64,000 bases of DNA from assembly GCA_024697025.1 (NCBI GenBank), contig JAILGH010000012.1, positions 1 to 64,000 on the forward strand, read 5' to 3'. The translations under genes and the position numbers were made by a program. Numbering within the stretch: the first letter of the stretch is position 1; each line of letters opens with the position of its first letter. Positions 1 through 24,861 of this stretch are shown here, in pieces. The stretch is from Pseudobutyrivibrio sp. (GTDB lineage Bacteria; Bacillota; Clostridia; Lachnospirales; Lachnospiraceae). Under the pieces are notes generated by a model. The model worked only from the letters and a program-made list of their open reading frames with translations, ran no database searches and was not told where the DNA came from.

Positions 1-128
1 GCAAGAAGCTCTACACCTGTTGCTCCTGTCTTGGCAGTTTCACGTAAGCATCCCTCTAAATCAAGCTTTCCAAGATAAAACTCATCCTGGTAGCTGTAGA
101 GAGATACGGCTCTTTTAATATCGCTCAT
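1..128 (-). CDS. Sugar phosphate isomerase/epimerase-like protein, N-terminal part only (C-glycoside deglycosidase alpha-subunit-like); continues past window edge
   Basis: Reverse complement reads MSDIKRAVSLYSYQDEFYLGKLDLEGCLRETAKTGATGVELL..., typical TIM-barrel sugar isomerase N-terminus; adjacent to DUF6379-like gene. Confidence 0.75.
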   Translation of the reverse strand, partial: MSDIKRAVSLYSYQDEFYLGKLDLEGCLRETAKTGATGVELL

Positions 129-143
129 TTCATTACCTCCCTA

Positions 144-536
144 CTAAATCTCAAATGTAGTATTGCAAGGTGCCTCAATTACAAATGGCATATATGAAGG
201 AGCAATCCTCTGGATAGCTTCGATTGTATGGCTGCCCTTTGTAAGTCCGCCCTCTTTTTTAACTGTTACTGTTGCATACTCGCCAAACTCCCAGCGATAC
301 TCTGGATCGATGACTGTTCGGCATTCTTCTAATGTAAATGTCTCGCCATTTACAGTGATTGTGATGTCTTCTCTATTTACATTAACACCATCAACCTTAA
401 GGATGATGTCCCTCAAAATCGAGAGAGTAAATGAACGGTAGTACTGGGCTTTCCAGTCGAAGCTATAGCCCACTACCTGTCCATTCTCCTCAACATTCTT
501 AAAGCTAGATGGATTATAAATTGGTCTTCCTGCCAT
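144..536 (-). CDS. DUF6379-like protein (C-glycoside deglycosidase beta-subunit-like)
   Basis: 130 aa, MAGRPIYNPSSFKNVEENGQVVGYSFDWKAQYYRSFTLS..., resembles the small subunit that pairs with the isomerase-like alpha subunit; genes are adjacent. Confidence 0.75.
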   Translation of the reverse strand: MAGRPIYNPSSFKNVEENGQVVGYSFDWKAQYYRSFTLSILRDIILKVDGVNVNREDITITVNGETFTLEECRTVIDPEYRWEFGEYATVTVKKEGGLTKGSHTIEAIQRIAPSYMPFVIEAPCNTTFEI

Positions 537-609
537 TTATATATCCTCCGTAAAATTTGTAATTCTTTTAATAAGACGAAAGTTTTCTAACAAGATTTAA
601 AATCCTTAT

Positions 610-1719
610 TTAAAAGAAGTATTCCTTACCAGACTCTGCTGACTTGTAAATACCCTCAAGAATCTGTGTTACTACAAATGCTTGCTCTGGCTTAACAAGT
701 GGCTCCTTGTCGTTGATGATAGCATCAAGCCACTGATCTGCCTCACGAACAGCCTCTGCTGCAGCGCCACCTTCGAAGAAGTCAACTACACCTGCTGGTG
801 AGATAACCTTCTCCATAAGCTGATTGTGCTCAACTGTGTTGTAGATGAGCTCATCCTGTGGATATGAACCACCGTGGTGAATCTCAGCACCTGCCTTTGT
901 ACCGCAAAGTGTTGTAGATGCTTCCATAGACTTAAGAACGTTAAGTGCCCAAGAAGCCTCAAGGTATATAACTGCACCATTCTTCATCTTTACAAGACCG
1001 AAAGCTGAATCCTCAACCTCAAAAGTCTTAGGATCCCAAGGACCAAATACGTTACCCTCTGGACCATGCTCGTCACGACCAAGCTTGTAGAATACCTGAC
1101 CAGAAACTGAAACTGGCTCATAGTTATCCATCATCCAAAGTGTGATATCAAGAGCGTGTGTTCCGATATCGATAAGTGGACCGCCACCCTGAAGTGCCTT
1201 GTTAGGGAATACACCCCATGTAGGAACTGCACGACGTCTAAGAGCGTGTGCCTTTGCCATGTAAACTTCACCAAGCTCACCAGCTTCACATGAAGCGTGA
1301 AGTGTCTGTGTGTCATCACGGAATCTGTTCTGATAGCCGATTGTAAACTTCTTACCAGACTTCTTCCAAGCATCAATCATCTTACGTGCATCCTCTGTGC
1401 AGTGAGCCATTGGCTTCTCGCACATTACATGCTTGCCAGCCTCGAAAGCTGCAACTGTAATAGGGCAGTGTGCAACGTTTGGAGTACATACATGTACAAC
1501 ATCAATGTTTATTGAAGTGTCAGCAAGCATCTCCTTGTAATCTGTATAAACCTTTGAATCTGCTGAGCCATACTGCTCTTTAGCCTTTACTGCTCTCTCT
1601 TCAATGATGTCGCAGAAAGCAACGATTTCTGCTCTATCTGGAAACTTTGCAAGAGAAGGAAAATGCTTCTGATTTGCAATTCCTCCGCATCCTACTACAG
1701 CAACTCTAACTTTACTCAT
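610..1719 (-). CDS. Gfo/Idh/MocA family oxidoreductase
   Basis: VRVAVVGCGGIANQKHFPSL Rossmann motif, CEKPMAHC motif; start trimmed to MSKVRVAVVG, preceded by AGGAGG. Confidence 0.9.
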   Translation of the reverse strand: MSKVRVAVVGCGGIANQKHFPSLAKFPDRAEIVAFCDIIEERAVKAKEQYGSADSKVYTDYKEMLADTSINIDVVHVCTPNVAHCPITVAAFEAGKHVMCEKPMAHCTEDARKMIDAWKKSGKKFTIGYQNRFRDDTQTLHASCEAGELGEVYMAKAHALRRRAVPTWGVFPNKALQGGGPLIDIGTHALDITLWMMDNYEPVSVSGQVFYKLGRDEHGPEGNVFGPWDPKTFEVEDSAFGLVKMKNGAVIYLEASWALNVLKSMEASTTLCGTKAGAEIHHGGSYPQDELIYNTVEHNQLMEKVISPAGVVDFFEGGAAAEAVREADQWLDAIINDKEPLVKPEQAFVVTQILEGIYKSAESGKEYFF

Positions 1720-1964
1720 TTTAAATTCCTCCTGAAAATCCCGCACATAAATCACACTTTTTATTTTTTTCTCGCTGGTTACGTTCTCAAACCTGAGTAT
1801 TGTCTTCACTCACCAAAACGTTCGTTGCGACAACACTCAGAGTTTTATAACTACCAGCTCCTCTAACATTTTTTGAGTGTGATTTATATGCTATTTTTAT
1901 TCTTATTAATAATTTGATTTTTTCTTTATATGTTCTTATTAATAGACTTTATGTACGTGTTAAC

Positions 1965-3413
1965 TTAGTCCTCTATATACTCTGCTGCTTCCATACCAGC
2001 AATACGTCCTGTGTTTACAGCGTAACCCATTGAGTTACCTGGAAGTAGGAACATGTAGCTGTCATCATAGATGTTGCATGAATCAGCACCACAAGCATAA
2101 AGACCTGGGATTGGCATGAAATCTTTGTCACAAACCTCACAGTTTTCGTTGATTCTGATTCCACCGACCGTACCGTATCCACCTGGATGATATGTTCCAC
2201 AGTAGAATGGTCCCTTTCTTAACTTACGAAGGTATCTGTAGTTCTTGAAGAACTCCTCATCTCTGCCTTCGCAGTAATCGTTGTAGTCATCGATTGTCTC
2301 CTCGAGAACCTCTGCATCAACACCAATCATCTCTGCAAGCTCCTCGATTGTCTCAGCCTTAAAGAAGTTCTTAGAACCTTTGGAAACAACCTCGTCCATT
2401 CCCTCATAGAAATCTGATACGTCTGGATCTGGTGTAACAAGGCTTGTTACATCAACACCGTTCTTTACATATGACTTAACGATTGTTGAATCAACGATTG
2501 AATATAAAACCTTATCCTTCTGATGCATTGCTACATTTGAAAGATATGTTGTGTTCTGTGCATATTCCTCGTTCATTACACGCTTACCAAACTTGTTAAC
2601 AATAAGGTTTGGTTGTCTGAGAACGTTCTTTACTGAGCCTGAAGCTTCCTCGCCACCGCCAAGGTCGCAAGCCTGCTCTATTCTAACTGGAAGGTGGTCA
2701 GCACCTGCCTCCCAAGCCATCTTTAATCCATCACCCATAAGACCTGGAATTGCAAAGTTGAACATGTCCTTACCCTGCTCTAAGCCAGTTTCCTCAAGGA
2801 TGAATTCCTTGTTGCATCCGGCACCGCCTGTCGCGATAACTGCTGCCTTACACTCGATTGTGAATTCCTCACCATCCTTATTTACTGCAACAACTCCGCA
2901 AACCTTGCCTTCATCATCCTTAAGAATCTTCTTGCCAGCTGTCTCAAGTAAAACTTTTACCCCAAGCTCCTGAGCTCTGTTAAGAAGTGCCTTGTTCATA
3001 TGACCTGCTGCACGAGGTCCGATCTTGTTTCCAGTCTTAACGATATGCCATGTAGCCTCTGACTGTGGGAAGTACTTGAATGCACCTTCAAACTCAACTC
3101 CCAAGTCCTCAAGCCACTCAATTGTCTCGCCTGACTGCTCGAAGTATCTCTTTATAAGTCTTGCATCAACATTGTAATGTGTGTAATCCATAAACATGTT
3201 AAATGCCTTTTCAACAGTGATATCTATCATCTGTTGCTGCTGGTACTTTGTTCCAATACCAAGTGGTCCCATACCCATGTTGGCTGCACCACCAGTAATT
3301 GCTGCTTTTTCAATTAAGATAACCTCAGCTCCGTCCTCAGCTGCCTGAACTGCTGCTGATAAACCAGATGGGCCACCTGCAATTACAACTAATTGTGTCT
3401 TTAAGTTTTCCAT
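1965..3413 (-). CDS. FAD-dependent oxidoreductase, fumarate reductase/3-ketosteroid dehydrogenase-like flavoprotein
   Basis: N-terminal AGGPSGLSAA FAD motif, C-terminal HPGGYGTVGGIRINENCEV and FLLPGNSMGYAVNTGRIAG. Confidence 0.85.
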   Translation of the reverse strand: MENLKTQLVVIAGGPSGLSAAVQAAEDGAEVILIEKAAITGGAANMGMGPLGIGTKYQQQQMIDITVEKAFNMFMDYTHYNVDARLIKRYFEQSGETIEWLEDLGVEFEGAFKYFPQSEATWHIVKTGNKIGPRAAGHMNKALLNRAQELGVKVLLETAGKKILKDDEGKVCGVVAVNKDGEEFTIECKAAVIATGGAGCNKEFILEETGLEQGKDMFNFAIPGLMGDGLKMAWEAGADHLPVRIEQACDLGGGEEASGSVKNVLRQPNLIVNKFGKRVMNEEYAQNTTYLSNVAMHQKDKVLYSIVDSTIVKSYVKNGVDVTSLVTPDPDVSDFYEGMDEVVSKGSKNFFKAETIEELAEMIGVDAEVLEETIDDYNDYCEGRDEEFFKNYRYLRKLRKGPFYCGTYHPGGYGTVGGIRINENCEVCDKDFMPIPGLYACGADSCNIYDDSYMFLLPGNSMGYAVNTGRIAGMEAAEYIED

Positions 3414-3588
3414 TTCTTCTCCTTCTAAAACTTCAACCTAATTGTTTGGTTCTTATTTTCTTGTATATAAGTTAGCACCCCAAAGCAATTGCAACTATTT
3501 TCAAATTCCTTAAACCTTATCTATTATTGCATTCAAATTTTTGCTGACATTTTCATCTGCAAAAAAAGACAAGACACTGTTGCACAGG

Positions 3589-4695
3589 CTAGAACTTACC
3601 TACCTTAGTTCTCTTCTTAGGAAGCTTTGGTAACTTGGTGGCTGTCTTGATGCAGCCCTCGTCGCAGGCACCCACACACTTGCCGCACTGTTCGCAAAGA
3701 TCCTGGTCAATCATATGTATGAAACCGTCTTTTCCTTCGATTGCTTCCTCTGGACAAGCATCTATACAGTCGCCACAACCAATACATTCATCTGGGTCGA
3801 TATAGTAAAGTGCAGCTGCCTTGTAGCACTTGCCACACTTACAGGTCTTTTTCTTGATATGGTCATTAAACTCCTCTGCAAAAATTTCCATTGCAGATGT
3901 AAGAGGTCTTGTCATGCTCTGGCCAAATGGACAGTAAGCACCCACTGTAATCAGCTCAGACACTTCCTTGATAAGGTCCACATCAGTAGCCTTTGCCTTT
4001 CCTGTAGTCATCTCTGTGACAATCTGTCTAAACTGAGATGTTCCTTCGCGGCAAAGAACGCACTTACCACAGGAAGCCTTATACGCTTCATTCATAAGCT
4101 GAACACAAGTCTCAACTATACACTGGTCCTGACCGTATATAGATATTGAGCTAAACTTTTCTGTGGCATCTATCTTGGTTGAAGAAGCTTCCTCAGGTGT
4201 AACAAAGGAACCCTTCAAACCACCGATAAGCACTGCCTTAGCATCGTCAAGTGATGCTACTTCTGACAAGGCTGTTCCTACTGCAACCCTCTTAATCTCT
4301 GTTTTGTCACCTGAATTTACAGCGACAAATCTCTCCTCAAAACCGTTCTTAATGCCATAGGCAACCTCTGGTGTAATAACCGAAACAGCCTTGTCATCAT
4401 ATACTGTAACGTAATCATCCTGAATCATTGGACGAGGAAGGTTACCTGAAAGTACCTGAGCTACAGCATATGGATTGTTAAGTGTAGGGGAAGTTGTCTT
4501 GGCATATCTTACTTCACCATCCAAGCCCTCTACCTTGTCGCCTTCTAATAGAAGATAAATTATATCTGCATCAATCTCCTTAGCCTGCTTATTTGCCCCA
4601 GCTACAACATCCTCAAGATAGTTGTTCATAAGATACATGGAGATTGGTGCCTTAACATCGTCACTTACACAACTAACAACTAATAAATTCTTCAT
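3589..4695 (-). CDS. NuoF-like iron-sulfur protein (SLBB + NADH-4Fe-4S region + two C-terminal 4Fe-4S motifs), no recognisable FMN/NADH domain
   Basis: SCGKCVLCREGTSQ; CIGCGDCIDACPEEAI; CEQCGKCVGACDEGCI; no GRGGAGFP-type motif. Confidence 0.8.
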   Translation of the reverse strand: MKNLLVVSCVSDDVKAPISMYLMNNYLEDVVAGANKQAKEIDADIIYLLLEGDKVEGLDGEVRYAKTTSPTLNNPYAVAQVLSGNLPRPMIQDDYVTVYDDKAVSVITPEVAYGIKNGFEERFVAVNSGDKTEIKRVAVGTALSEVASLDDAKAVLIGGLKGSFVTPEEASSTKIDATEKFSSISIYGQDQCIVETCVQLMNEAYKASCGKCVLCREGTSQFRQIVTEMTTGKAKATDVDLIKEVSELITVGAYCPFGQSMTRPLTSAMEIFAEEFNDHIKKKTCKCGKCYKAAALYYIDPDECIGCGDCIDACPEEAIEGKDGFIHMIDQDLCEQCGKCVGACDEGCIKTATKLPKLPKKRTKVGKF

Positions 4696-6818
4696 TACTG
4701 CTGACCTCCTTCCTCTTCAATGTAATCGCTCCAGAACTTCTGTGGAGAGATTTGAACACGAAGGTCACACTGCAAGCAACGGCTAGCTTCACAGCCTGCC
4801 TTGCTGCAGTCAAAGCCAAGATCCATTGGCTCAAAGTTGCACTTTCTAGCTTCAATGTCAGTTACATTTGGCTCATTACGATGAGTCTTGGTAAGGTCTT
4901 CATTCTTGCCGATGCATGGATTGAGAGTCTGCTCTGGCGCAAGACTTTCTTCGATGTTTCCATCTCCGCCAAGATACTTATCAATCTCACTGACAGCTTC
5001 TCTTGCCTCTGCAATTGCTGCAATGACTGAACGTGTACCTGTAACAGCATCACCAGCGGCATAGATTCCATCCTCAGATGTCTTGTGCTCATCTGATGTA
5101 ACAACACGACCTCTGTTAAGTTCAAGACCAAACTCCTCGTCTATATCTGGATGCTGGCCAACTGCAAAGATAATTGTGTCTGCAGGGAATGTAACTGTTG
5201 AATCAGGAATGCGAGTAAACTCTGGTCCCTTAGGCCCAAACTTAAGTCCCTCAATTCCTGTGACAGTAAGGCCTGTCACCTTGCCATTTTCTGATTCGAT
5301 GGCATCAAAGGTGCGGGAATTTTCTACAACGATTCCGTCTTCCTTAGCCCATGTAACCTCTTCTTCTGATGCAGTCATCTTGTCTGCTGCCTCAAGACAT
5401 GTCATAACAACATGCTTTGCCCCAAGACGTAGAGCTGACTCTGCACAGTCGATTGCAACGTTACCGCCACCAAGTACTACTACGTTGTCTCCCACTGGAA
5501 GTGGCTCATCTAAATTGATAGCACGCAAGAAATCTGCATTGAGATAAACGCCAGGCAAATCATTTCCTTCAAGAGGAAGCTTGTTACCAGCGTGAGTACC
5601 AACTGAAACAAACACTGCATCATAACCCTGGGCCTTAAGCTCAGTAGCTGACTTCACATCACTGTTGCACTTAATCTCTACTCCTACTGCTTCGATTTCT
5701 GCAATCTCTCTATCTAATACTTCTCTAGGTAATCTATATGAAGGAATACCATATCTCATCTGACCGCCAGCCTTTGGAAGCTTCTCAAAAATAGTAACTT
5801 CATGGCCAAGCTTCTTGAGATAGTAACCTGCTGTAAGACCTGCAGGGCCTGCACCAATTACAGCTACCTTTTTGCCAGTTGCAGCCTTCATAAATGCCTT
5901 TTCTTTCCAGCTACCATCGTCCTGGCTTGCTGCAAATCTTTTAAGATTTCTAATAGAAAGAGGTCCATCAAGATGATTTCTCTTACACTGTAATTCGCAT
6001 GAATGCACGCAAATATAGCCAAGTGATTCTGGGAATGGTGCCTTCTCGCGAACTGTTGCTGCAGCTGCTGGGAAGTTTCCTTCCTTTATAAATCTGATAT
6101 ATTTTGGAACGTTGATATGAGCTGGGCATCCCTCACTACAAGGAACAAGGGTCATCTCACGGCTGAGGCCCGGATCATCCTTAAATACTCCAACCTTATC
6201 TCGAATAGAACCTGTAGGACAAACCTCTACGCAGGCTCCACAGAACTGGCAGCCAGCTTCCTCAAGGCTGTTTCCATTGATAACAACCTTCATTCTTCCA
6301 TCAATCTTTTCAAACTTAAGGGCACCTACGCCTCTAAGCTCTGAGCAGGCACGAACGCATCTGCCGCAGAGAATGCAACGATACATTTCGTGAAGCATTA
6401 ATGGATTCTCTTCATTTTCAATAAGAGGAAGCTTCTGCTGACGTAAATCACGACCTGAATCTCCTACATACTGAGAAATTGAAGCAAGCTGACACTTGCC
6501 ATACTTAGGACATCCAACGCACTCGCTTGGATGTGTTTTGAACATTAAATCACAAGAAAGCTTTCTAACCTTTTCAGCTGTCTCGTCCTTAGTGTTGATT
6601 ACCATGCCCTCCTTAACCTTTGTAGAGCAGGATGTAATAACACCATCAACTCCGTCTTGTTTTACCACACAAAGACGACATCCCCCATTTGGATGCAAAT
6701 CGTTGTGGTGACAAAGATGTGGGATATAAATACCATTATCAAGAGCTGCCTCTAGGACAGTTTTTGATTCATCTGCCACTATAGACTTGCCATCAATTGT
6801 CAAATTGACTGTTGCCAT
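4695..6818 (-). CDS. Hybrid protein: NuoG/HydA-like N-terminal Fe-S domains fused to GltD/NfnB-like FAD-NAD(P) oxidoreductase
   Basis: PHLCHHNDLHPNGGCRLC 2Fe-2S; HPSECVGCPKYGKCQL; CILCGRCVRAC; CQFCGACVEVCPTGSI; then VAVIGAGPAGLTAGYYL and VVVLGGGNVAIDCAESAL; start trimmed to MATVNLTIDG. Confidence 0.88.
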   Translation of the reverse strand: MATVNLTIDGKSIVADESKTVLEAALDNGIYIPHLCHHNDLHPNGGCRLCVVKQDGVDGVITSCSTKVKEGMVINTKDETAEKVRKLSCDLMFKTHPSECVGCPKYGKCQLASISQYVGDSGRDLRQQKLPLIENEENPLMLHEMYRCILCGRCVRACSELRGVGALKFEKIDGRMKVVINGNSLEEAGCQFCGACVEVCPTGSIRDKVGVFKDDPGLSREMTLVPCSEGCPAHINVPKYIRFIKEGNFPAAAATVREKAPFPESLGYICVHSCELQCKRNHLDGPLSIRNLKRFAASQDDGSWKEKAFMKAATGKKVAVIGAGPAGLTAGYYLKKLGHEVTIFEKLPKAGGQMRYGIPSYRLPREVLDREIAEIEAVGVEIKCNSDVKSATELKAQGYDAVFVSVGTHAGNKLPLEGNDLPGVYLNADFLRAINLDEPLPVGDNVVVLGGGNVAIDCAESALRLGAKHVVMTCLEAADKMTASEEEVTWAKEDGIVVENSRTFDAIESENGKVTGLTVTGIEGLKFGPKGPEFTRIPDSTVTFPADTIIFAVGQHPDIDEEFGLELNRGRVVTSDEHKTSEDGIYAAGDAVTGTRSVIAAIAEAREAVSEIDKYLGGDGNIEESLAPEQTLNPCIGKNEDLTKTHRNEPNVTDIEARKCNFEPMDLGFDCSKAGCEASRCLQCDLRVQISPQKFWSDYIEEEGGQQ

Positions 6819-6989
6819 AATACTAGACTCCTTTAAAATTAAATCTTTAGAAAATAAGAACAAATTTAATTCCTTTTTGACTGTTCTTATTCTAAAAAAA
6901 TAAACGTCAAGGTTCTTTTAAAATCTTTTACGATTTTTTGCCTTAATTTGCACAATTGATTTATCCATCTATGGGGGATGCAACAAATA

Positions 6990-7973
6990 CTATGATTGTA
7001 TTGCAGTCTCAAAGTTCTTGATTCGCTCATTCATAAGGGAATCAAGCTTTTCCTTATTAGCCATAATCTTTGGTCCACAGATTCCTCCAAAGCTTTGGAT
7101 TTCTACTGTGTGCTCACGAAGTCCCTTGAATGTGCCGCGGGCTCTCTCCTGCTGCTCCTTGGTAAACTCAACCTGTATACCATCATCAACAATTGAAAGC
7201 TGACCGTGGATACCACAGATTGGGCAGGTGACCTTTGTTGAGCCAGGTCTTATCATAAGAAGTCTCTGGTGACAAACCGGGCATACCTCTTCAGGCTTAC
7301 CTGCTGGTCTAAAGAATTCTACTGAATCGTCATTTAATCCAAGGACAGTGCGCTTGCCCATCTCGTGCATGTTTGCAATAAGCTCATCATCAAGGTATGG
7401 ATTTCCTGTTGTGCCCATGCAGTTTGCATTGTAGTTACCCATTACCTTCATCATAGGTGGGAAGCCAAAGAAATGTAGTGTGGATGTACCCATTGATGTC
7501 CAATCATCTGTGATAGCTCCGCCTACTGAAATATAAGAAACAGTTTTCTTTCTCAATCTTTCCATAGGGAAGTCATCTGCGTTGCCTGGAAGCTCCCCGT
7601 TTCTTCTCTTATCAAGTACATAGGTAATTGCAGAATAGTCATGACGACAAGAGAATCTATCTACAAAATCCTTGAACTGACCTACTGGCTGAAGCACATA
7701 AACCGGTGCACCTAAAATAATTGAGTCCGCCTCGTGAACCTTATCCTCCAGCATCTGGAAATCATCCTGGAAGATACATACATTGTCTTTTCCTTTTTCT
7801 AACTGGGTAGAGCAGGCTCCGCAGCCACGGCATCTTCCAATGTTAAGATTTACCGTATTTACGAATTCCACCTCAATTTCCGGCATAGCTTCTTTTGCAC
7901 CAAAGAGAGCTTCCTTTACCAAAATATCAGTGTTTCCATTTTTTCTACCAAAGGAAATACCTAAAACCTTCAT
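6990..7973 (-). CDS. Flavodoxin-like/NADPH-dependent FMN reductase family protein with C-terminal zinc-ribbon-like extension
   Basis: KVLGISFGRKNGNTDILVKEAL; CRGCGACSTQ; C-terminal CPVCHQR...CPICGIHG. Confidence 0.8.
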   Translation of the reverse strand: MKVLGISFGRKNGNTDILVKEALFGAKEAMPEIEVEFVNTVNLNIGRCRGCGACSTQLEKGKDNVCIFQDDFQMLEDKVHEADSIILGAPVYVLQPVGQFKDFVDRFSCRHDYSAITYVLDKRRNGELPGNADDFPMERLRKKTVSYISVGGAITDDWTSMGTSTLHFFGFPPMMKVMGNYNANCMGTTGNPYLDDELIANMHEMGKRTVLGLNDDSVEFFRPAGKPEEVCPVCHQRLLMIRPGSTKVTCPICGIHGQLSIVDDGIQVEFTKEQQERARGTFKGLREHTVEIQSFGGICGPKIMANKEKLDSLMNERIKNFETAIQS

Positions 7974-7991: not shown

Positions 7992-8957
7992 TTATTTAAC
8001 AAATTTCTCTGCATAGTGACATGCCACAACGTGATTTGACTTCAGCTCTCTCAATTGAGGTTCCTGTGCATAACACTGCTCGGTTGCATAAGGACAGCGA
8101 GCAGCAAATCTACAACATGGCTTTGGGTCTATTGGAGATGTAAGCTCTCCTTTTAGCACCATTCGCTCATGTTTTGCATGTACATCTGGAATTGGGATAG
8201 CAGACAATAGTGCCTGGGAATATGGATGAATCGTATTTTTGAAGATTTCATCTGCAGGGCACTTTTCAATCATCTGTCCCAAATACATAACAACAATATC
8301 ATCTGAAATGTGCTTAACAACTGACATGTCGTGGGTGATAAACATATAGGTCAGACCTCTCTCCTGCTGCAGGTCCTGCAGCAGATTGAGGATCTGTGCC
8401 TGTATGGAAACATCAAGAGCTGATACTGGTTCGTCACATACAATGAACTCTGGATTAAGGGATAGTGCTCTTGCTATGCCAATACGTTGGCGACGACCAC
8501 CATCAAGCTCATGAGGATACACACCTTCAAGTCGCTTGGCCAAGCCAACAAGCTCCATCATCTCTCTTGCCTTTGCAGATACCTCCTGCCTGGACATGGA
8601 TTTGTTGTTGGTCTTAATAGGCTCTTCTATCAGCTGTAACACATTCATACGTGGGTCTAAGCTTGCATAAGGATCCTGGAAAATCATCTGAATATCGGCG
8701 CGATATTTTTTCTTGAATTCCTTGATAGGCATATTTGCAATATCCTCGCCCTTGAAAATGATTTCACCGCTGGTTGGCTCGTGAAGTCTCATTAATGTCT
8801 TACCAAGAGTTGATTTACCACAGCCTGATTCTCCAACTACTCCTACTGTTTTCCCCTTCTCAATGTTGAGGGATACGTTGTCTACCGCATGCAGGCTTCC
8901 TCTTGGAGTAGAAAAATATTTCTTTAAATTTTTAATTTCTAATAAATTCTCTGCCAT
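7992..8957 (-). CDS. Oligopeptide/dipeptide-type ABC transporter ATP-binding protein (OppF-like)
   Basis: GESGCGKSTLGKTLMRL Walker A, LDGGRRQRIGIARAL signature, FIVCDEPVSALD Walker B. Confidence 0.93.
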   Translation of the reverse strand: MAENLLEIKNLKKYFSTPRGSLHAVDNVSLNIEKGKTVGVVGESGCGKSTLGKTLMRLHEPTSGEIIFKGEDIANMPIKEFKKKYRADIQMIFQDPYASLDPRMNVLQLIEEPIKTNNKSMSRQEVSAKAREMMELVGLAKRLEGVYPHELDGGRRQRIGIARALSLNPEFIVCDEPVSALDVSIQAQILNLLQDLQQERGLTYMFITHDMSVVKHISDDIVVMYLGQMIEKCPADEIFKNTIHPYSQALLSAIPIPDVHAKHERMVLKGELTSPIDPKPCCRFAARCPYATEQCYAQEPQLRELKSNHVVACHYAEKFVK

Positions 8958-9931
8958 TATTTTTCCTCCCTTGCCTGATACTTAAGACATTTCACCACAT
9001 GGCCATCGCTGACCTCGTAAGGCTGTGGATCCTGTATCTTGCAAGCGTCACATTTTTCATCACACCTGTCATAAAAGCTGCAATGACTAGGTAAATCAGA
9101 TGGATCACAAACCATTCCCGGAATCACATGAAGTCTTTCAACATCTTTGTCCAAAGATGGAATTGATTTGTATAAAGCCTTGGTGTATGGATGCTTTGGA
9201 TTATCAAAAATCTCCTGTAAGGTTCCATACTCAACAATTTCACCTGCGTACATAACTGCACAGTGATCGCACATTTCAGCCACCACTCCCAAATCATGGG
9301 TGATTAAAATTGTGGATGTGTTGTTCTTTTTTTGCAGGCCACGCATCATATCAAGAATCTGTGCCTGAATTGTAACATCAAGGGCAGTGGTTGGCTCATC
9401 TGCAATTAGCAAATCTGGCTCGCAGGCCAAAGCTATGGCAATTACGATACGCTGCTTCATTCCACCTGAAAACTGGTGTGGGTAATCCTTGTATCGCTCT
9501 GGAACTATGCCAACAAGGCCAAGCATTTCCTGGGCACGCTTAAGAGCTTCTGCCTTGGAGCACTTGTCGTGAAGTAATATAACCTCGGCGATTTGATCTC
9601 CCACAGTTTTAACAGGGTTGAGGGCTGTCATTGGATCTTGAAAAATCATGGAGATTTTGTTACCTCTAACAGCTCTCATTTCCCTTTTTGATTTTTCTAA
9701 AAGGTTCTCACCTTCGAATTTAATTTTTCCTTTTTTGATGGCTCCAACATGCTCTGGAAGTAATCCCATTATAGCTAGAGCTGTTGTTGTTTTTCCCGCG
9801 CCTGTCTCGCCCACCAGACCAAGAATTTCTCCCTTTTTCATAGTGAGCTTAATGTTGTTTACAGCCTCTACTACCTCATCGTCAGTTTCGTAGTGAACCA
9901 CCAATTCTTCTATTTCTAAGATATTTTCCAT
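8957..9931 (-). CDS. Oligopeptide/dipeptide-type ABC transporter ATP-binding protein (OppD-like)
   Basis: [17 protein letters not shown] Walker [16 protein letters not shown] signature, [11 protein letters not shown]. Confidence 0.93.
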
Positions 9932-9948
9932 GATTATCCTTTCCGACT

Positions 9949-10872
9949 TTATTTGGATTTAGGATCGAAAGCATCTCGCAAGCCATCACCTAAAAGGTTA
10001 AATGCAAAGCAGGTAACCATAATCATAAGGGCTGGGAAAAACATCATGTAAGGACTGCTGGTCAAATATGCTTTTCCATCATTTAAAATAAGCCCCCATT
10101 CAGGTGTAGGCGCTGCAAGTCCAACTCCGATGTAGCTCATTGCGGACATCATCATAATTGAAACTGCCAAAAATCCTACAAAATAAATAATCATTACGCC
10201 TGCGGCATTTGGAATCATATGTTTAAAAATCATTTTCATCTGACCAACTCCAATTGCCTCAGAGGATTCGATGTAGTCACAGCCGCGAACTCTGAGAATA
10301 GCCGCTCTGTTGTTTCTTGCCATGGTAGGCATGGATGCAAACATAACTGCTGCAACAAGCTGAGGAATACCATTTCCTAAAACAGATACAATGCACATTG
10401 CCATCATAATCATTGGAATGGATTGAAATACATCCATGATTCGCATTATCACCGTATCTACAACTCCACCGCAGTAGCCTGCAATAATTCCAAGCAGGCC
10501 ACCGGATAATAGAGCTGCAATGGTACAGAATAATGCTATAAATAATGAATATCTGGCACCATAAACGCATCGACTGAAAATGTCTCTGCCAAACTGATCT
10601 GTTCCAAATAGATGCGCCGAGCTTGGCGGCTGCATCATAGCTAAATAGTCCTGACTCTGATAATCATAAGGTGCAATAAAATTAGCAAATATCGCAACCA
10701 GTATAAGAATCCCCACTACTATAAGACCAACTATAGCTGTCTTATTTCTTCTAAATCTCTTCCATGCTTCAAATGCAGGAGTAGATTTTACAGGCTTATT
10801 TCTCTTAGCCTTTTTCTTTGCAATTTTCTCCATCTCTGGAGTGTATAACTTTGCCATATCCTTCTCCTTCAA
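9949..10872 (-). CDS. ABC transporter permease (OppC/DppC-like)
   Basis: APYDYQSQD...HLFGTDQFGRDIFSRCVYGARYS typical DppC/OppC N-terminus; multiple TM segments. Confidence 0.92.
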   Translation of the reverse strand: MKEKDMAKLYTPEMEKIAKKKAKRNKPVKSTPAFEAWKRFRRNKTAIVGLIVVGILILVAIFANFIAPYDYQSQDYLAMMQPPSSAHLFGTDQFGRDIFSRCVYGARYSLFIALFCTIAALLSGGLLGIIAGYCGGVVDTVIMRIMDVFQSIPMIMMAMCIVSVLGNGIPQLVAAVMFASMPTMARNNRAAILRVRGCDYIESSEAIGVGQMKMIFKHMIPNAAGVMIIYFVGFLAVSIMMMSAMSYIGVGLAAPTPEWGLILNDGKAYLTSSPYMMFFPALMIMVTCFAFNLLGDGLRDAFDPKSK

Positions 10873-10878
10873 TGAATA

Positions 10879-11841
10879 TTATGCTGCTTTTTTTAGCTTC
10901 TTTTTTCCGCCAGAAATAATTGTGGTCTTTAGTCGAGGGTCAATAAGTATAAAGCTAATATCTACCAAGAGATTAATAACTGTTAGTACTATCGCTATTA
11001 TTAACGCTCCGCCTAGAACCGATGGATAATTACGCTGTGTAATTGAATCTGTAATGTATTTTCCAACACCTGGTATACCAAATACTGTCTCTAAAACCAT
11101 GGCTCCACCAATGGAGTTGCCAAGGTTGGTTCCGATGGACTGAGCCACTGGAATCATTGCATTTCTAAGTGCATGTCTTTTGGTAATGTTTCGCTCTGTC
11201 TGGCCCTTTGCCCTGGCTGTTCTGATATAGTCTTCCGAAAGCACTTCTAACATAGAAGAGCGGGTGATACGGGTGTAGCTTGCTACTGATGAAAGGCCTA
11301 TACACATCATTGGCAAAATATAGCCTTTTGCAGATTCAATTCCGCTGGATGGAAGAATGTGGTAGGTTACTGCAAAGATAAAAATCAAAACCAGTCCCAC
11401 TACAAACTCCGGAACGGATTGGAAAAACATTGATACAACAAGCACCAGTGAATCTATCCAGGTGTATTTCTTTAGTGCAGATACAATGCCTAAAATTATT
11501 CCTATTACTGCACCTATTGCCACTGCACCAAGAGTTATCAATCCAGAGGTTTTCAGCCTAGGTAATATTTCTGATAAAACCGGATTTCCTGTTCTATAGG
11601 AGTCTCCAAAGTCTCCTTTAGTTACGATTCCTTTTATATAATTGAAATACTGAACCACCACTGGATCATTCAAACCCAATTCTTCGCGTTTTGCATCTAC
11701 CTGTTCCTGGGGTGCATCATTTCCTAAGATAATTCTTGCAGGATCACCAGGAGTAAATGTTTTTAAAGCAAATATGATGGCTGACACCCCCAGCATAATA
11801 GGAATAAGATATACAATTCTCTTGATAATATATTTAATCAT
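10879..11841 (-). CDS. ABC transporter permease (OppB/DppB-like)
   Basis: MIKYIIKRIVYLIPIMLGVSAIIFAL...GDPAR...LGLNDPVVVQYFNYI. Confidence 0.92.
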   Translation of the reverse strand: MIKYIIKRIVYLIPIMLGVSAIIFALKTFTPGDPARIILGNDAPQEQVDAKREELGLNDPVVVQYFNYIKGIVTKGDFGDSYRTGNPVLSEILPRLKTSGLITLGAVAIGAVIGIILGIVSALKKYTWIDSLVLVVSMFFQSVPEFVVGLVLIFIFAVTYHILPSSGIESAKGYILPMMCIGLSSVASYTRITRSSMLEVLSEDYIRTARAKGQTERNITKRHALRNAMIPVAQSIGTNLGNSIGGAMVLETVFGIPGVGKYITDSITQRNYPSVLGGALIIAIVLTVINLLVDISFILIDPRLKTTIISGGKKKLKKAA

Positions 11842-11861
11842 CGTCAGCTCCTATTTCTTAA

Positions 11862-13493
11862 TTACTGTTCGCGATAGAATGATGTAACATCGATATATCC
11901 GCGCTCTCTAGTTGCAAGACCGTAAATGTCTGGCTGTGTAATTGCTGAACGCAATTCTGGACAAAGGTTAAGTACAAGTGTGTCTCTCTTGAAAATCTCC
12001 TCAAGTGCTGCAACCTTTTCCTTAGCAGCTTCATTGTCCTCTGCCTTAATTACTTCCTGAATAGCAGACCAGATTTCATCTGAAGTATACTTGTCACCAC
12101 CGATACAGAATGTGTTAATTGAATTCTCATCAAAGAATACCCATGCTGATGGATTTCTTGAATCAAGGTACTCACCTACAAGGATGATGTCATAGTCACC
12201 ACCGTTTGCCCCCTGTACAAAAGTAGGAATATCAACTGAGTTGATTTCAAGTGTGATACCTGCCTGTGCAAGCTGAGCCTGCATTACTGTGTATAAGCCC
12301 TCTGCATCAGGTGTTCCAAGGCAAGAGATTGTAAGGCCATCGCCGTAGCCTGCTTCCTCTAAGAGAGCCTTTGCCCCCCCAACATCCTGCTTTCTCTCAT
12401 CCTCTGTGTAGTAGTCAACTGCAAATGGAACATCAGCATCAATGTAACCTAATGACTGCTTTGCCTGACCGCCAGTTGCATAGGCTGCAATTGCGTCATA
12501 ATCAAGTGCCTTATCAAGAGCCTCACGTACCTTTACGTTCTTCATTGGCTCTGAATCTCTCATGTTCATCCAGATGTGATAAACCTGACCAAAGCTGTAG
12601 AAGGATGTCTTTACATTCTGGTTGTTTACATATGTTGATGCCTGAGCAACTGGAATTTCGTATGCAACTCCTGCATCTCCTGCCTCAACTGCCATCTCTC
12701 TTGCAGCTGGGTCCTGTGTGAATGTAAACTTGATTTCCTTGAAGTATCCAGCGTAATCCTGGTTCCAGTAGTTGTCGTTTCTCTCGAGAACTACATACTG
12801 TCCCTGAACCCACTCTTTAAATCTGTACTTACCAGAGCCGATTACCGGGCTGTCTGCAGCTTTGTCAAATCCGCCGCAAGCTTCTACCTCGTCCTCTGAG
12901 AAAATACCAAATGGTGTCCATGTAAGCATTGTTACAAGGTCAGGTGCTACAGTGTTGAAGCCAAGAATAACTGTGTGGTCATCAACAACCTCATTCTTGG
13001 ATGGATCAAGGAACTTACCACCATCGTTGTTTCCTGACTGTGATGCAAGAGTTTCAAATGTATAAACTACATCCTCCGCTGTAAGAAGAGAGCCGTCAGT
13101 GAATGTTACATCATCACGAAGAGTAAACTGTAATCTGTAATCATCAAGCCACTCCCATTTTGTTGCTATGTTTGGTTCAACCACCCCTGTGAACTGATTC
13201 TGAGATACTAAGGTATCAAGAATAGCTCCTGAAATAATGCTTGATTCATTCTCTGATTCACCAACAAGTGTTGGAGCCAGTGAAGATGGCTCTGAAGCAA
13301 GTGCAACAACAAGTGTCTCATCTGATTTAACTTTGTTTACTAAATCAACATTGGCTGTATTTTCTGTTGCAGCCTTTGAACCCGCTGTTTTAGCTGGAGC
13401 ACTGCCTGTTTCTTTTTCTGAACTGCCGCAGGCTACAACTGAAAATGCCATAGCAACTGCTAAACCAGCCCCAAGAACTTTTTTTAGTTTCAT
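11862..13493 (-). CDS. ABC transporter substrate-binding lipoprotein (SBP family 5)
   Basis: Lipobox MKLKKVLGAGLAVAMAFSVVACGSS; family-5 SBP layout; first gene of an Opp-type operon. Confidence 0.92.
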   Translation of the reverse strand: MKLKKVLGAGLAVAMAFSVVACGSSEKETGSAPAKTAGSKAATENTANVDLVNKVKSDETLVVALASEPSSLAPTLVGESENESSIISGAILDTLVSQNQFTGVVEPNIATKWEWLDDYRLQFTLRDDVTFTDGSLLTAEDVVYTFETLASQSGNNDGGKFLDPSKNEVVDDHTVILGFNTVAPDLVTMLTWTPFGIFSEDEVEACGGFDKAADSPVIGSGKYRFKEWVQGQYVVLERNDNYWNQDYAGYFKEIKFTFTQDPAAREMAVEAGDAGVAYEIPVAQASTYVNNQNVKTSFYSFGQVYHIWMNMRDSEPMKNVKVREALDKALDYDAIAAYATGGQAKQSLGYIDADVPFAVDYYTEDERKQDVGGAKALLEEAGYGDGLTISCLGTPDAEGLYTVMQAQLAQAGITLEINSVDIPTFVQGANGGDYDIILVGEYLDSRNPSAWVFFDENSINTFCIGGDKYTSDEIWSAIQEVIKAEDNEAAKEKVAALEEIFKRDTLVLNLCPELRSAITQPDIYGLATRERGYIDVTSFYREQ

Positions 13494-13659: not shown

Positions 13660-13692
13660 CAGGTCAAAAATCAACATGAGATTTTTGACCTG
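13660..13692 (-). terminator. Rho-independent terminator after the AraC-GH39 gene
   Basis: Perfect 13-bp stem CAGGTCAAAAATC / GATTTTTGACCTG followed on - strand by TTATTTTTTT. Confidence 0.8.
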
Positions 13693-13713: not shown

Positions 13714-16125
13714 TTATATTCTTTTCAAACTAATGCATGCCACTTCATTTGCTTTAAGCTGAATATTGTATTTTAAAATACCATCCACCACCTCAGCTCT
13801 ATCAATAGTAAGATGTGGTTCACACACCTTTCGGCAGAACTTGATGTCATTTTTAGAAAGGTTATTGTCAAATCCAAGCCCCTTCCATATATCAACTATG
13901 CTTCCATAATCATCGTTTACTCGATACACCCTAGCCTTGTACTTATCGCCTCCCACATCCTTTATCTGAAAACCGATGTTAAGCAAATCATTGTCCTCAT
14001 AGTACTTCCACAAATCATTTTTGCTAATATCACCTTCGTCAGTAAGATAATAGTTGTAATTCAGTCGCTTTTGGTTATGGCAGACAATGGTGAAGTTCTC
14101 ATCCTCATCCATTGAGATAATATACTCTTTGCCCTTTCCCACAATATATGGCTTAAGGCGATTCATAAATTCAAAGGCATAAGCCGCCGGCTTGAATATA
14201 CTATCCTTTGTAATAAGTCCGCTTCCTCCAAATAAAAGTGCGTTGGTATCTGAGTACTCCACCGTCCTGTCTGTAGCATGGAAATATCCCATACCGTCGA
14301 TACTTGTAATGTTTTGTATAAGATTTCTTGCAACATAAGCCCCCTTATAGCATGAGTCATTTATGGCATTTCTGTCTGAAATGGTATTATTCCATTCAGT
14401 TGCATAAAGTGGTGTGTCCTCTGAAAAACCAGCCTTGGTCATGCTGGCTCTGATACGTTCTGTTGCGTGCAAAAAAGAATCATTGTCAGTGTTTCTTCTA
14501 GAATATAAATCATTTCTAATCTCTCCACTGACATAAGGAAAGTGCATCATTGAAATGTAGTCCGGCTGCTGCTGTTGTTCTCTCCATTCTTTGAAAAAGC
14601 CATCCATCACTTCGTCACTTATGTCATCTCTGATACCACAGCCACCTATTTGGATTCGCTTGTTAATACCTCTAATAATAGAAGCAGTCTGATTGAATAA
14701 CTTAAAATAATTGTAGCCTTCTATGGCCTCAGCCCTTTCATCATTCCAAAGCTCAACAAGCCAGGTGCCCACCTCCTTTGGATCATAGCAATCGTTAAGG
14801 TGGATAAAAAAGCTTTCAATCATTTTGCCCCAGTAATCCGCTTCGTATCTAAGTTCTGAGTTGTCCTCACCTTTTAAAATGGGAAGTCTGACGCTGGCCT
14901 GTATTTTCTTTGGCTTACATCCAAGCTCCAAGGCAGGCTTCATGCCATGCTCCAAGAGGAAATCAATTATGCCGTCTATCTTGGAAAAATTGTACACTCC
15001 AGTACCAAATCCAATTTCAAGAAGCATATTGGGCGTAAAAATATTCCAAAACCTAACATATTCAAAGTGCAGCGCTTCACCTATTAAAGCAATATGTTCT
15101 CTGGTGCCTGCATTTAGCAAATCCTCTGCATTGCCACCATTTAATATCTTCTTGTAGCCGGTGGTAAGTGTTGGAAACAAAGCCTTGTACTTTAGTGAAT
15201 AGTTGGCGAAAATCTCATTGCAATTCTCGTAGAAAGCCTCCTGCTTTGAGCCACTTTGGATAAAATCCTCAAGCCTTGCCTGAAGCTTTTTGTCCATGGA
15301 ATAGCAATCCTTCGCTGAATCCGCCAGAGTCTTTTTTCTAAATTCTGATGGTGTTTGGCCATACACCTGCTTGAAGGTCTTGTTGAACAAAGCCACCGTG
15401 GAAAAACCGTTATCAAAGGCAATCTTGGTAATTGGCTCGTTGGTGTAAAGCAGACTCTCGTAAGCATGACTCACCCTGATGTTGGTAACATATTTCAGGA
15501 AGCTCATGCCATAGGTTTTTTTAAAAAATCTTGATAAATATGCCTCTGATAAGTACAGCTTGTCAGCCAAATCCTTTAGAGATAGCTGCTCCTTGTAATT
15601 ACCCCTGACATAATTGTTTATCTGATTAATCCTGACTGTGATATTGTCGTCAGTGTTGTCGTGTCTATCTCCGCCTCGAACCTGAAAGTTAACTGTAAGC
15701 TCATCCAACAGCTCATAACAAAGAGCAATATGACCGAAGTCCGCCACATTGCCGTTGGTATTTACATAATGAGTCAACAGACTTTTAATCCTCTTTCTTA
15801 AGGCATCGTATTGCTCATTATTTCCCATATTGCTGTTGCACAAAAACTGTACATCCAAGGAACCCAGCACGTCACTTAACAGTTCAAATGAGATGCAAAC
15901 CTTTACTAAAAGACCATCCTCCGACAATCTTATACTGTGCTTTTTATTGGCGTTGATTAAGTAAAATCCTTCCTCAAACAGAACCACCCTCTCCTGGCCC
16001 ATCTGGATTTCAACTCGCCCCTGAAGCACGTAGCACAGCTCAATATTTTGATGGAAGTGCTCCATTTCCAGCTTCTTGTCAGAAACCTCGATTCTAACTC
16101 TTTCTCTAGAATTCTTTGACTCCAT
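13714..16125 (-). CDS. AraC-family regulator (cupin + HTH) fused to GH39-like glycosidase domain
   Basis: N-terminal cupin; HTH AYLSRFFKKTYGMSFLKYVTNIRV...; C-terminal TIM-barrel-like region with VELWNDERAE and LYATEWNNT. Confidence 0.85.
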   Translation of the reverse strand: MESKNSRERVRIEVSDKKLEMEHFHQNIELCYVLQGRVEIQMGQERVVLFEEGFYLINANKKHSIRLSEDGLLVKVCISFELLSDVLGSLDVQFLCNSNMGNNEQYDALRKRIKSLLTHYVNTNGNVADFGHIALCYELLDELTVNFQVRGGDRHDNTDDNITVRINQINNYVRGNYKEQLSLKDLADKLYLSEAYLSRFFKKTYGMSFLKYVTNIRVSHAYESLLYTNEPITKIAFDNGFSTVALFNKTFKQVYGQTPSEFRKKTLADSAKDCYSMDKKLQARLEDFIQSGSKQEAFYENCNEIFANYSLKYKALFPTLTTGYKKILNGGNAEDLLNAGTREHIALIGEALHFEYVRFWNIFTPNMLLEIGFGTGVYNFSKIDGIIDFLLEHGMKPALELGCKPKKIQASVRLPILKGEDNSELRYEADYWGKMIESFFIHLNDCYDPKEVGTWLVELWNDERAEAIEGYNYFKLFNQTASIIRGINKRIQIGGCGIRDDISDEVMDGFFKEWREQQQQPDYISMMHFPYVSGEIRNDLYSRRNTDNDSFLHATERIRASMTKAGFSEDTPLYATEWNNTISDRNAINDSCYKGAYVARNLIQNITSIDGMGYFHATDRTVEYSDTNALLFGGSGLITKDSIFKPAAYAFEFMNRLKPYIVGKGKEYIISMDEDENFTIVCHNQKRLNYNYYLTDEGDISKNDLWKYYEDNDLLNIGFQIKDVGGDKYKARVYRVNDDYGSIVDIWKGLGFDNNLSKNDIKFCRKVCEPHLTIDRAEVVDGILKYNIQLKANEVACISLKRI

Positions 16126-19606: not shown

Positions 19607-20653
19607 CTACTTTGTCCAAACATAAGGTAATTTTTCTCCAGCTAAGTACGCATTTACGTTTTCAGCCATCTTGCGTCCAGACCATCCATCAACATCTGTT
19701 GTAAGACCTGCAAAGTGAGGTGAGCAAAGTACATTTTTCATCTTTAAAAGTGGATGATTAGCTGGTACTGGCTCCTGCCAGTATACATCTACTGCTGCGC
19801 CTGCGATTGTCTTGTTCTCAAGAGCCTCTACAAAATCCTTCTGATCAATAACTGCTGCACGAGCTGTGTTAATAACGAAGGCTGTTGGCTTCATCTTTGA
19901 GAACCAGTCTTTATTTACAATGCCTCTTGTAGATGGAACTACAGGAAGGTGAATGCTGACAATGTCTGACTGAGAAAGCATCTCGTCAAGTGAAACTGCC
20001 TTTGCTCCTGTTGCCTCGATAACAGCTGCATCAAGGTAAGGATCGTAAGCTAAGATTTCCATGCCGAATGCCTTTGCACGACTAGCAACCTCGCGACCGA
20101 TTGCACCATAGCCTGCAAGGCCAAGCTTCTTGCCGTAGAGCTCAAAGCCAATGCCGTAATCTGTGTATGGATGATTCTCATCAAGTGGTCCCCAGATAAC
20201 ATTCTTTACATCTGGAACATCATAAATATCATCCACTGGTGCACCAAGGTGCTCTCCCATAAGAAGCCCTGCAACTGCTCTAGTCATGAAACGAGTTGAT
20301 GCAATCATCATACCCATGCAATACTCAGCTACTGCAACTGCATTTCTACCTGGTGTATATGTAAGCTGGATTCCAGCTGCTTTAAGGGCCTCGTTATCAA
20401 CTGTAACTGGTGTACCCTTGGCAACTCCAATAAACTTCATTCCTGACTCAATCCATGCGTTGATTGTATCTGTGCCGGCGACCTCGTCACCTAATACAAC
20501 GATTTCTGCTCCCATACACTCTTCGCGAGTCATTTCCTCTGTAACGTTACCCTTGCCGTGCTTTAATTCACCGCAGATAGTAACTTCACATTCTTTTTTT
20601 ATCTTTTCAAGCTCCTCTTCTGGAAGAGAAGTACATAATGCTAATTTTTTCAT
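19607..20653 (-). CDS. D-2-hydroxyacid dehydrogenase family protein, NAD-dependent
   Basis: GLAGYGAIGREVASRAKAFGMEILAYDPY; INTARAAVIDQ; DVYWQEPVPANHPLL. Confidence 0.92.
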   Translation of the reverse strand: MKKLALCTSLPEEELEKIKKECEVTICGELKHGKGNVTEEMTREECMGAEIVVLGDEVAGTDTINAWIESGMKFIGVAKGTPVTVDNEALKAAGIQLTYTPGRNAVAVAEYCMGMMIASTRFMTRAVAGLLMGEHLGAPVDDIYDVPDVKNVIWGPLDENHPYTDYGIGFELYGKKLGLAGYGAIGREVASRAKAFGMEILAYDPYLDAAVIEATGAKAVSLDEMLSQSDIVSIHLPVVPSTRGIVNKDWFSKMKPTAFVINTARAAVIDQKDFVEALENKTIAGAAVDVYWQEPVPANHPLLKMKNVLCSPHFAGLTTDVDGWSGRKMAENVNAYLAGEKLPYVWTK

Positions 20654-20665
20654 TTTTCCTCCTTG

Positions 20666-21325
20666 CTAAACAGCCTGATCTGCCGCAATTAAATCCTGCA
20701 TTGCCTTTTCTGCTTCTGCTGACATTGGCTCGTAGGTTCCAAGAGTCTTTGCGATAACTGTTGTCTGTGCCATTTCCTCTGTGTAGATTGTTGCATGCAT
20801 TGCCTGCTTCATGCTCTTACCACAAGAGAACATTCCGTGATTCTTGATGAGACATACAAGGCCCTTGCCGCCAAGTGTATTCTTAACCTTGTCTGCGACC
20901 TCGTCAGAACCTGGCATTGTAAAGCTTACGATTCCAATTGGTGTAAACTCACACTGTGGTGGTGTAATTGGTCTAAGCTCTGGATTCTCACCCATGGCGC
21001 AGATTGTTGCGTACATGCTGTGTGTATGAACAGTTGCATTTATCTCTGGGCGATTTCTAAGTACTGCAGTGTGCATTGGAAGCTCTGAAGAAGGCTTGAA
21101 GTTACCTTCTAGCCATTCATTCTTGCCATCCTCGTGCATCTTAACTACTGCTATATCCTCAGCTGACATTCCTGTGTAAGAGATGCCAGATGGTGTTATA
21201 CAACAAATTGTTGGATCCTCAGGTGTTCTCATGCAGATGTTGCCTGAAGTACCATTTATAAGCCCCTTTTCAACAGCCTCAAGAATTGCCTCAAGTACTG
21301 TCTGTCTTGTCTTTTCGTAGTTCAT
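20666..21325 (-). CDS. Class II aldolase/adducin family protein (fuculose-phosphate-aldolase-like)
   Basis: GTSGNICMRTPE...CCITPSGISY; TVHTHSMYATICA zinc-binding HxH; IKNHGMFSCGKS. Confidence 0.92.
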   Translation of the reverse strand: MNYEKTRQTVLEAILEAVEKGLINGTSGNICMRTPEDPTICCITPSGISYTGMSAEDIAVVKMHEDGKNEWLEGNFKPSSELPMHTAVLRNRPEINATVHTHSMYATICAMGENPELRPITPPQCEFTPIGIVSFTMPGSDEVADKVKNTLGGKGLVCLIKNHGMFSCGKSMKQAMHATIYTEEMAQTTVIAKTLGTYEPMSAEAEKAMQDLIAADQAV

Positions 21326-21413
21326 TAAAATACCCTCCTATTATTTAGCTTCTGATGTCTTACATCAGTGACTAATAATCTTTAATTTCTATGTAAATCA
21401 TAGCCGCCTGCAC

Positions 21414-21453
21414 TAGCGGAAACAAATTTTCTATTTCCGCTATGTAGCGGCAA
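21414..21453. promoter_or_regulatory. Putative operator with three half-sites upstream of the aldolase operon
   Basis: TAGCGGAAA...TTTCCGCTA...TAGCGGCAA; same pattern recurs at 24768-24797. Confidence 0.5.
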
Positions 21454-21515
21454 TTGGTAAAGTTAAGTCCATGCAAATTGTCTGCTGTGATAAACAATCA
21501 ACTAGCCTCTGCTGC

Positions 21516-22664: not shown

Positions 22665-22712
22665 AAAAACCTCCAACTATGCCTGTTTTGCTAATACTTC
22701 TGCTATCTATTT

Positions 22713-24680: not shown

Positions 24681-24767
24681 ATACTCCTCCTTTAATACCT
24701 CTCCTGTGAGCATCAATTCTTTATGTATTCAATCTACGCCCTACGCTGGTCAGTCTCAAATTTTATA

Positions 24768-24797
24768 TTTCCGTTAATAAGCGGCAATCAGCGAAAT
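24768..24797. promoter_or_regulatory. Putative operator with three half-sites between the OYE and FGGY-kinase genes
   Basis: TTTCCGTTA, TAAGCGGCAA, CAGCGAAAT; parallels 21414-21453. Confidence 0.5.
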
Positions 24798-24861
24798 TGA
24801 ATAGGAAAGTTTAGGATGATAAATTACAAACTAGGAGAAACTAATTTAGGGAGGTCAGACA

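Follow-up and report, generated by a model that had tools for sequence, protein, structure and literature searches.

At the left edge of the window, by which we mean the whole stretch of 64,000 nucleotides analysed, lies a block of twelve genes on one strand (Table 1). Three of them, alpha, beta and an oxidoreductase gene, form a triad of the C-glycoside deglycosidase (CGD) type; upstream of it on the same strand follow the genes that we call V, nF and nG, a homologue of flavone reductase (FLR) and a five-gene ABC importer. Most intergenic gaps are below 21 bp or are overlaps, the longer ones being 171, 175 and 245 bp before nG, V and dgpA, respectively. Separate transcripts are possible because of these three gaps, the last of which also holds a hairpin element.

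Table 1. Features of the CGD block and its upstream border in the window.
Feature	Position	Strand	Basis
CGD (C-glycoside deglycosidase) alpha subunit, DgpC/DfgA/CarB type	3..128	(-)	first 42 codons, ATG 126-128
CGD beta subunit, DUF6379/CGDB, DgpB/DfgB type, 130 aa	144..536	(-)	PF19906; PDB DfgB, DgpB
DgpA-type glycoside 3-oxidoreductase, Gfo/Idh/MocA, 369 aa	610..1719	(-)	PDB 7xr9 DgpA, 557 bits
V: soluble FAD ene-reductase, nearest VprA family, 482 aa	1965..3413	(-)	NF053717, PF00890
nF: HydB/StnB/NuoF-like Fe-S subunit without FMN/NADH-site motifs, 368 aa	3589..4695	(-)	PF10589, two 4Fe-4S
nG: NuoG-like 2Fe-2S/4Fe-4S domain fused to GltD-like NAD(P)H/FAD domain, 707 aa	4695..6818	(-)	Fer2_4, Fer4_20, Pyr_redox_2
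FLR homologue, FMN ene-reductase, 327 aa	6990..7973	(-)	only PDB match 7d38-7d3b
Peptide-type ABC importer, whole	7992..13493	(-)	Pfam/NCBIfam; gaps below 21 bp
DppF	7992-8957	(-)	
DppD	8957-9931	(-)	
DppC	9949-10872	(-)	
DppB	10879-11841	(-)	
SBP_bac_5 binding protein of the importer	11862-13493	(-)	
Terminator-like hairpin between AraC-GH39 regulator and operon	13660..13692	(-)	13-pair stem and T tail; consensus match only
AraC/cupin regulator fused to GH39-like domain, candidate regulator, 803 aa	13714..16125	(-)	PF12833, PF01229, PF07883

The first-pass annotation had read the edge as a truncated isomerase-like gene, a small DUF6379-like protein and a Gfo/Idh/MocA oxidoreductase, tightly spaced on one strand, and this reading held throughout. 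The three genes lie on the minus strand with 15 bp between alpha and beta and 73 bp between beta and the oxidoreductase. In a profile search the 130-aa protein matched the Pfam family CGDB with 122.7 bits (cut-off 27.6, E 8e-36); its PDB matches are DfgB, DgpB and a 'DUF6379 domain-containing protein', and it stands far from the characterised beta subunits, with a best score of 61 bits (DfgB). The same profile found no match in 14 control genomes (0/14) and matched 35/397 genomes of the family, so that the assignment is not a chance match. The oxidoreductase consists of GFO_IDH_MocA domains and aligns over residues 1-364 with the solved DgpA (E 1.5e-166); a second DgpA scores 495 bits, the best family member that is not a DgpA about 105 bits, and no paralogue in the rest of the genome more than 79 bits. 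NCBIfam holds no model that matches alpha, beta or the FLR homologue.

The window begins at base 1 of contig C95 in a genome of 110 contigs, and the alpha gene is cut by this contig end. Contig C98 opens with a sequence that, once reverse-complemented, equals window positions 1-141 exactly, and this 141-bp overlap sequence occurs in the genome at the C95 and C98 ends and nowhere else. On C98 the alpha gene is present in full (L003:14-1066(+), 350 aa). A contiguous, independent assembly of Pseudobutyrivibrio UBA1225 (L119) has the order nG, nF, V, DgpA, beta, alpha, regulator, Gfo, regulator, FLR, which is the order expected from the C95/C98 join. The unique overlap and the identical gene order rule out that the contigs were misjoined.

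The 42-aa fragment of alpha in the window by itself matches the PDB alpha subunits 8qvc and PuCGD (E 1e-7 to 7e-6). Every PDB match of the full protein is of the CGD alpha type (8qvc with 260 bits, DfgA with 161, 8qrz, DgpC with 139, and AgCGD2), which rules out an unrelated isomerase. With this and the CGDB match of the 130-aa protein, both grounds on which the first-pass annotation could have failed were checked and fell away. Five metal ligands and two catalytic residues have been described for AgCGD2, PuCGD and MiCGD (PMC8563793). In the alignment alpha keeps all seven (7/7), E143, D175, H283, K285 and E319 as the ligands and H145 and E321 as the catalytic pair, and they are kept throughout its clade. 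The locus thus combines a CGDB beta subunit, a TIM-barrel alpha subunit with the metal site, adjacent alpha and beta genes and a co-encoded 3-oxidase; by its sequence the triad is almost certainly a further member of the known Dgp/Dfg/Car system of C-glycoside cleavage. That the strain splits C-glycosides, and which of them it would choose, we infer.

A DgpA-type oxidase has been reported to act on O-glycosides too, a DgpA homologue oxidising many of them (PMC11239390), and eliminases with a similar structure are known for O-glycosides (PMC10628242). The triad might accordingly serve chiefly for cleaving O-glycosides by oxidation and beta-elimination, with C-glycoside cleavage being incidental. 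We regard this as very improbable, since the O-glycoside eliminase described so far shows no relationship at the sequence level (PMC10628242), an alpha/beta pair with CGDB and the full set of CGD residues is the C-glycoside form, and no such subunit is needed for O-glycosides.

Among the characterised systems, the DgpABC proteins of strain PUE (DgpA with PuCGD) resemble the triad in the co-encoded 3-oxidase and alpha/beta deglycosidase and in the metal and catalytic residues; however, the window alpha falls into another clade than PuCGD, and alpha and beta are only distantly similar. The V, nG, nF and FLR genes further distinguish the window from the PUE cluster, which is known here by description only and in which transporters and accessory genes of unclear role are also present (PMC8398226). 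DfgB of Eubacterium cellulosolvens (DfgAB/DfgE, EuCGD) is the best match of beta, and alpha matches DfgA with 161 bits, but the alpha of EuCGD belongs to a sister group outside the window clade. The best solved match of the whole window alpha, the 8qvc/8umc alpha with its DUF6379 partner, sits on a long branch, likewise outside the clade that is linked to V. Our search of the open-access literature found no usable description of PDB 8QVC/8QRZ, of DUF6379 or of dgpD-G.

Over its full length V has the VprA family (vinylphenol reductase, NF053717) as best NCBIfam match, and its 298.6 bits against a cut-off of 600 mark it as related to this family, not as a member. It is about 91% identical to Pseudobutyrivibrio proteins; judged by these best matches, a Pseudobutyrivibrio or a near relative is the most likely source of the window. 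The residues that we take to be diagnostic in flavocytochrome c3, the catalytic Arg402 and the carboxylate-binding His504 and Arg544, are replaced in the alignments of V by Asn287, Gly414 and Leu/Phe, which rules out a fumarate or urocanate reductase; the lack of the catalytic arginine and of the carboxylate-binding residues points to an uncharged substrate. VprA of Lactiplantibacillus plantarum has been described with a LysR regulator as its only neighbour (PMC10295242), whereas V comes with nG and nF.

The predicted model of nF (pLDDT 91) has HydB, StnB and NfnB as its best Foldseek matches, and the FMN-site motifs RGGAGFP and GEE[TS] are missing in 37/37 homologues. nG, for which a TTG at 6863 is a possible alternative start, matches best subunit A of NfnABC (9bov, 418 bits) and chain C of Stn (8oh5, 369 bits) in the PDB. 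Its nucleotide motif reads CLE in all 58 readable nG sequences (58/58), compared with YRR in the NfnA match, which suggests the use of NADH rather than NADPH. Although nG resembles StnC/NfnA in joining a NuoG-like to a GltD-like part and nF folds like StnB/HydB, the absent FMN motifs rule out that the pair forms a bifurcating complex of the Stn/Nfn/Hyd kind. In Stn the GltD-type FAD is non-bifurcating and hands electrons to the FMN of StnB (PMC10482914); it is this FMN end of the StnB-like subunit that appears to have been lost in nF. In four genomes nF and V are fused into a single open reading frame beside nG, which sets the module apart from Stn/Nfn-ABC and HydABC. These fusions are good evidence that nF would hand electrons to V, and because of them an ene-reductase is the likely end acceptor of nG-nF. 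This suggests that parts of bifurcating transhydrogenases were reshaped into the donor of a new terminal reductase.

The FLR homologue aligns with 7d38-7d3b over residues 1-295 (E 2e-37, 131.8 bits). This group of structures, named 'Cd1' by the depositors, we take to be the flavone reductase of Flavonifractor plautii, which fits the residue numbering in the FLR paper. Like that enzyme, the window protein is a full-length FMN_red protein, with a WrbA-like FMN domain and the essential C-terminal tail; the A-ring residues His271 and Ile275 (numbering of PMC7862272) correspond to H288 and I292 and are kept in nearly all of 63 homologues. It differs from the F. plautii enzyme in the modest score, in Ser108 at the place of Gly106 and in the genomic tie of its type to C-deglycosylation. 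FLR has been reported to be unable to use NAD(P)H directly, and its electron chain was left open (PMC7862272); nG-nF may be considered a candidate for this donor, a link that is weaker than the one between nG-nF and V. Contig C98 (L035) encodes another two FLR homologues, at 9129-10091 and 11731-12831, with identities of 47% and 36%. Counting the operon copy, the genome has three full-length FLR-like genes in total, and each of them is on C95/C98 at a distance of no more than about 13 kb from the triad.

The triad is flanked by three AraC/GH39-like fusions, one being the regulator of Table 1 (window 13714-16125) and the others lying on contig C98 (L035) at 1223-3631 and 4945-7350. A regulator of this AraC-GH39 type stands next to numerous CGD and V loci from many species, and importer genes stand beside V, nG and nF in several other species. 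In the gap between V and dgpA, window positions 1740-1896 can form a long imperfect hairpin (-58.6 kcal/mol, z -9.2), of which seven partial copies, 74-82% identical, occur elsewhere in the genome; it is probably a small mobile or repeat element. A search of window positions 1-30000 against Rfam, this hairpin included, gave no match.

The first-pass annotation had also pointed to a reductive and transport apparatus beside the triad that it did not know from the described clusters, and this apparatus proved to be real, recurrent and statistically tied to CGD. Among 397 genomes sampled from the family, V (at least 65% identity) was found in 13, and 13/13 are CGDB-positive against a background of 35/397 (Fisher 2e-15, a test that ignores phylogeny, related genomes not being independent). 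A second sample, which shares some species with the first, was a scan of named genomes that yielded 80 V loci; within the flank read, nG accompanied 57 of them, nF 50, CGD alpha and beta 37 and FLR 35. CGD is carried by 76/80 of these genomes, and of the V loci without a nearby alpha, 38 of 42 checked have CGDB elsewhere in the genome. For FLR relatives (E<=1e-40), 23 of 28 genomes are CGDB-positive (Fisher 6e-24, again blind to phylogeny), and in CGDB genomes 28/47 FLR-type genes have a CGDB gene at a distance of up to 15 kb; FLR adjoins V in under half of the loci, and its link to CGD is looser than that of V.

The association also follows the type of alpha. Among the neighbourhoods fetched by CGDB, 12 loci have an alpha of the window type (480 bits or more); V is present in 6 of these 12 and in just 2 of the remaining loci. 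In a quick tree, to be read with caution as to long branches, the window alpha belongs to a clade of 37 (SH-aLRT 99%) with V within 13 kb for 30/37, or for 31 if the window with its V across the contig join is counted, as opposed to 12/69 outside the clade; these shares overstate the presence of V because loci fetched for holding V are included. Some genomes that lack CGD have nG-nF together with relatives of V of about 50% identity, so this type of reductase is broader than C-glycoside metabolism, and it is only the V sub-family that is tied to CGD.

Seen from the gene spacing, the reductase and transport genes could be chance neighbours of the triad, as gaps of 171-245 bp, one of them with a repeated hairpin element, could mark an operon boundary. 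Yet this set of genes is found again with CGD across many genera, and V hardly occurs outside genomes with CGD; the genome counts given above for V (13/13 and 76/80) so strongly disfavour a chance neighbourhood that we find it hardly credible.

We read the locus as an operon for the import, C-deglycosylation and reduction of plant aryl-C-glycosides, probably C-glucosylflavonoids, and give this reading a probability of roughly three in four. Triad and reductase are probably coupled in one reductive pathway; that relatives keep the triad together with the reductase module suggests that cutting and reduction belong together. The ABC importer would take up the glycoside, and DgpA, judged by homology, would oxidise the 3''-OH of the sugar. 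The alpha/beta CGD, in which the catalytic residues are all present, would then remove the C2'' proton and expel the aglycone by metal-assisted beta-elimination, with 1,5-anhydro-D-erythro-hex-1-en-3-ulose as the predicted sugar product. On the reductive side, nG and then nF, with FAD and Fe-S clusters, may pass electrons from NAD(P)H on to V, whose FAD would receive them. FLR could reduce the C2=C3 bond of a flavone, and V could saturate an uncharged C=C bond in the phenolic moiety, such as that of a chalcone arising after the FLR step; nG-nF might, more tentatively, feed FLR as well.

The order of reduction and cleavage is likewise something we infer. Purified CGDs act very slowly on intact 3-oxo flavonoid C-glycosides, with a kcat below 0.5 per min and a KM of about 10 mM (PMC8563793), and this would fit an order in which FLR and V, both fed by nG-nF, reduce the flavone C-glycoside before CGD cleaves it. 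The opened C-glycoside would then be of the dihydrochalcone type, whose freed phloroglucinol-like ring would dearomatise easily and so activate the C-C bond for CGD. We consider reduction before cleavage possible but unlikely; if true, the so far missing source of electrons for FLR would thereby be identified.

Another reading places the reductase on the sugar side: V would reduce the enone that CGD releases, 1,5-anhydro-hex-1-en-3-ulose, and the module would thus serve the chemistry of CGD and not the aglycone. The sugar product of CGD is indeed an enone (PMC8563793), V is without carboxylate-binding residues, and its tie to CGD (76/80) is tighter than would be expected of a general flavonoid reductase. 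Products of this kind are, however, described as being hydrated to 3-keto-glucose and then reduced by an enzyme of the Gfo type (PMC10628242), and many of these clusters come with Gfo and isomerase-like genes. Moreover, a vinylphenol reductase is the nearest relative of V, and the aglycone enzyme FLR recurs beside it, which makes the sugar-side role, in our judgement, quite improbable compared with reduction of the phenolic part.

C-glycosides are common plant compounds that resist ordinary glycosidases, and the triad extends the characterised CGD kit to Pseudobutyrivibrio-like, rumen-type bacteria. The electron-transfer and double-bond-reducing module nG-nF-V is the new part of the locus and apparently undescribed in the open-access literature, where our search found no description of a reductase module of the fumarate-reductase/NuoF/GltD type. 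In the parts of their paper available to us, Goris and Braune report FLR genes and dgpBC clusters in Catenibacillus and describe no nG-nF-V module (PMC11170127). The joint occurrence of a specific CGD clade with a dedicated electron wire and two ene-reductases connects two fields of study that have so far been separate; with nG-nF there is a concrete candidate for the electron donor of FLR, left open in PMC7862272, and the locus gives a reason to consider reduced substrates for CGDs that are slow on flavone C-glucosides.

Several further observations were made around the locus and in other genomes. Window positions 22713-24716 encode an Fe-S flavoenzyme of the BaiCD/old-yellow-enzyme type (667 aa; 451 bits to the BaiCD model, cut-off 825) with close relatives near the CGD loci of other genomes, by its sequence possibly a further flavonoid reductase. 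Within 19607-26421 lies a group with a 2-hydroxyacid dehydrogenase, a class II aldolase, an iron alcohol dehydrogenase and an FGGY kinase, which perhaps serves further sugar breakdown. In two Treponema genomes (L188, L195) V occurs together with FLR; one of the two also has CGD and the other nG-nF, which suggests transfer between phyla. In the Pseudobutyrivibrio clusters L122 and L125 a second, DfgA-like CGD pair stands directly beside the window-type pair. Catenibacillus scindens DSM 106146 (G067/G429) has 11-14 CGDB matches, as compared with four DgpBC described in PMC11170127. Finally, CGDB was found inside open frames of 470-540 aa (G110:C69:15983 and 34467; G309:C66:21044; G067:C6:25471), which look like beta and alpha fused in one chain, as in PDB 8qrz.
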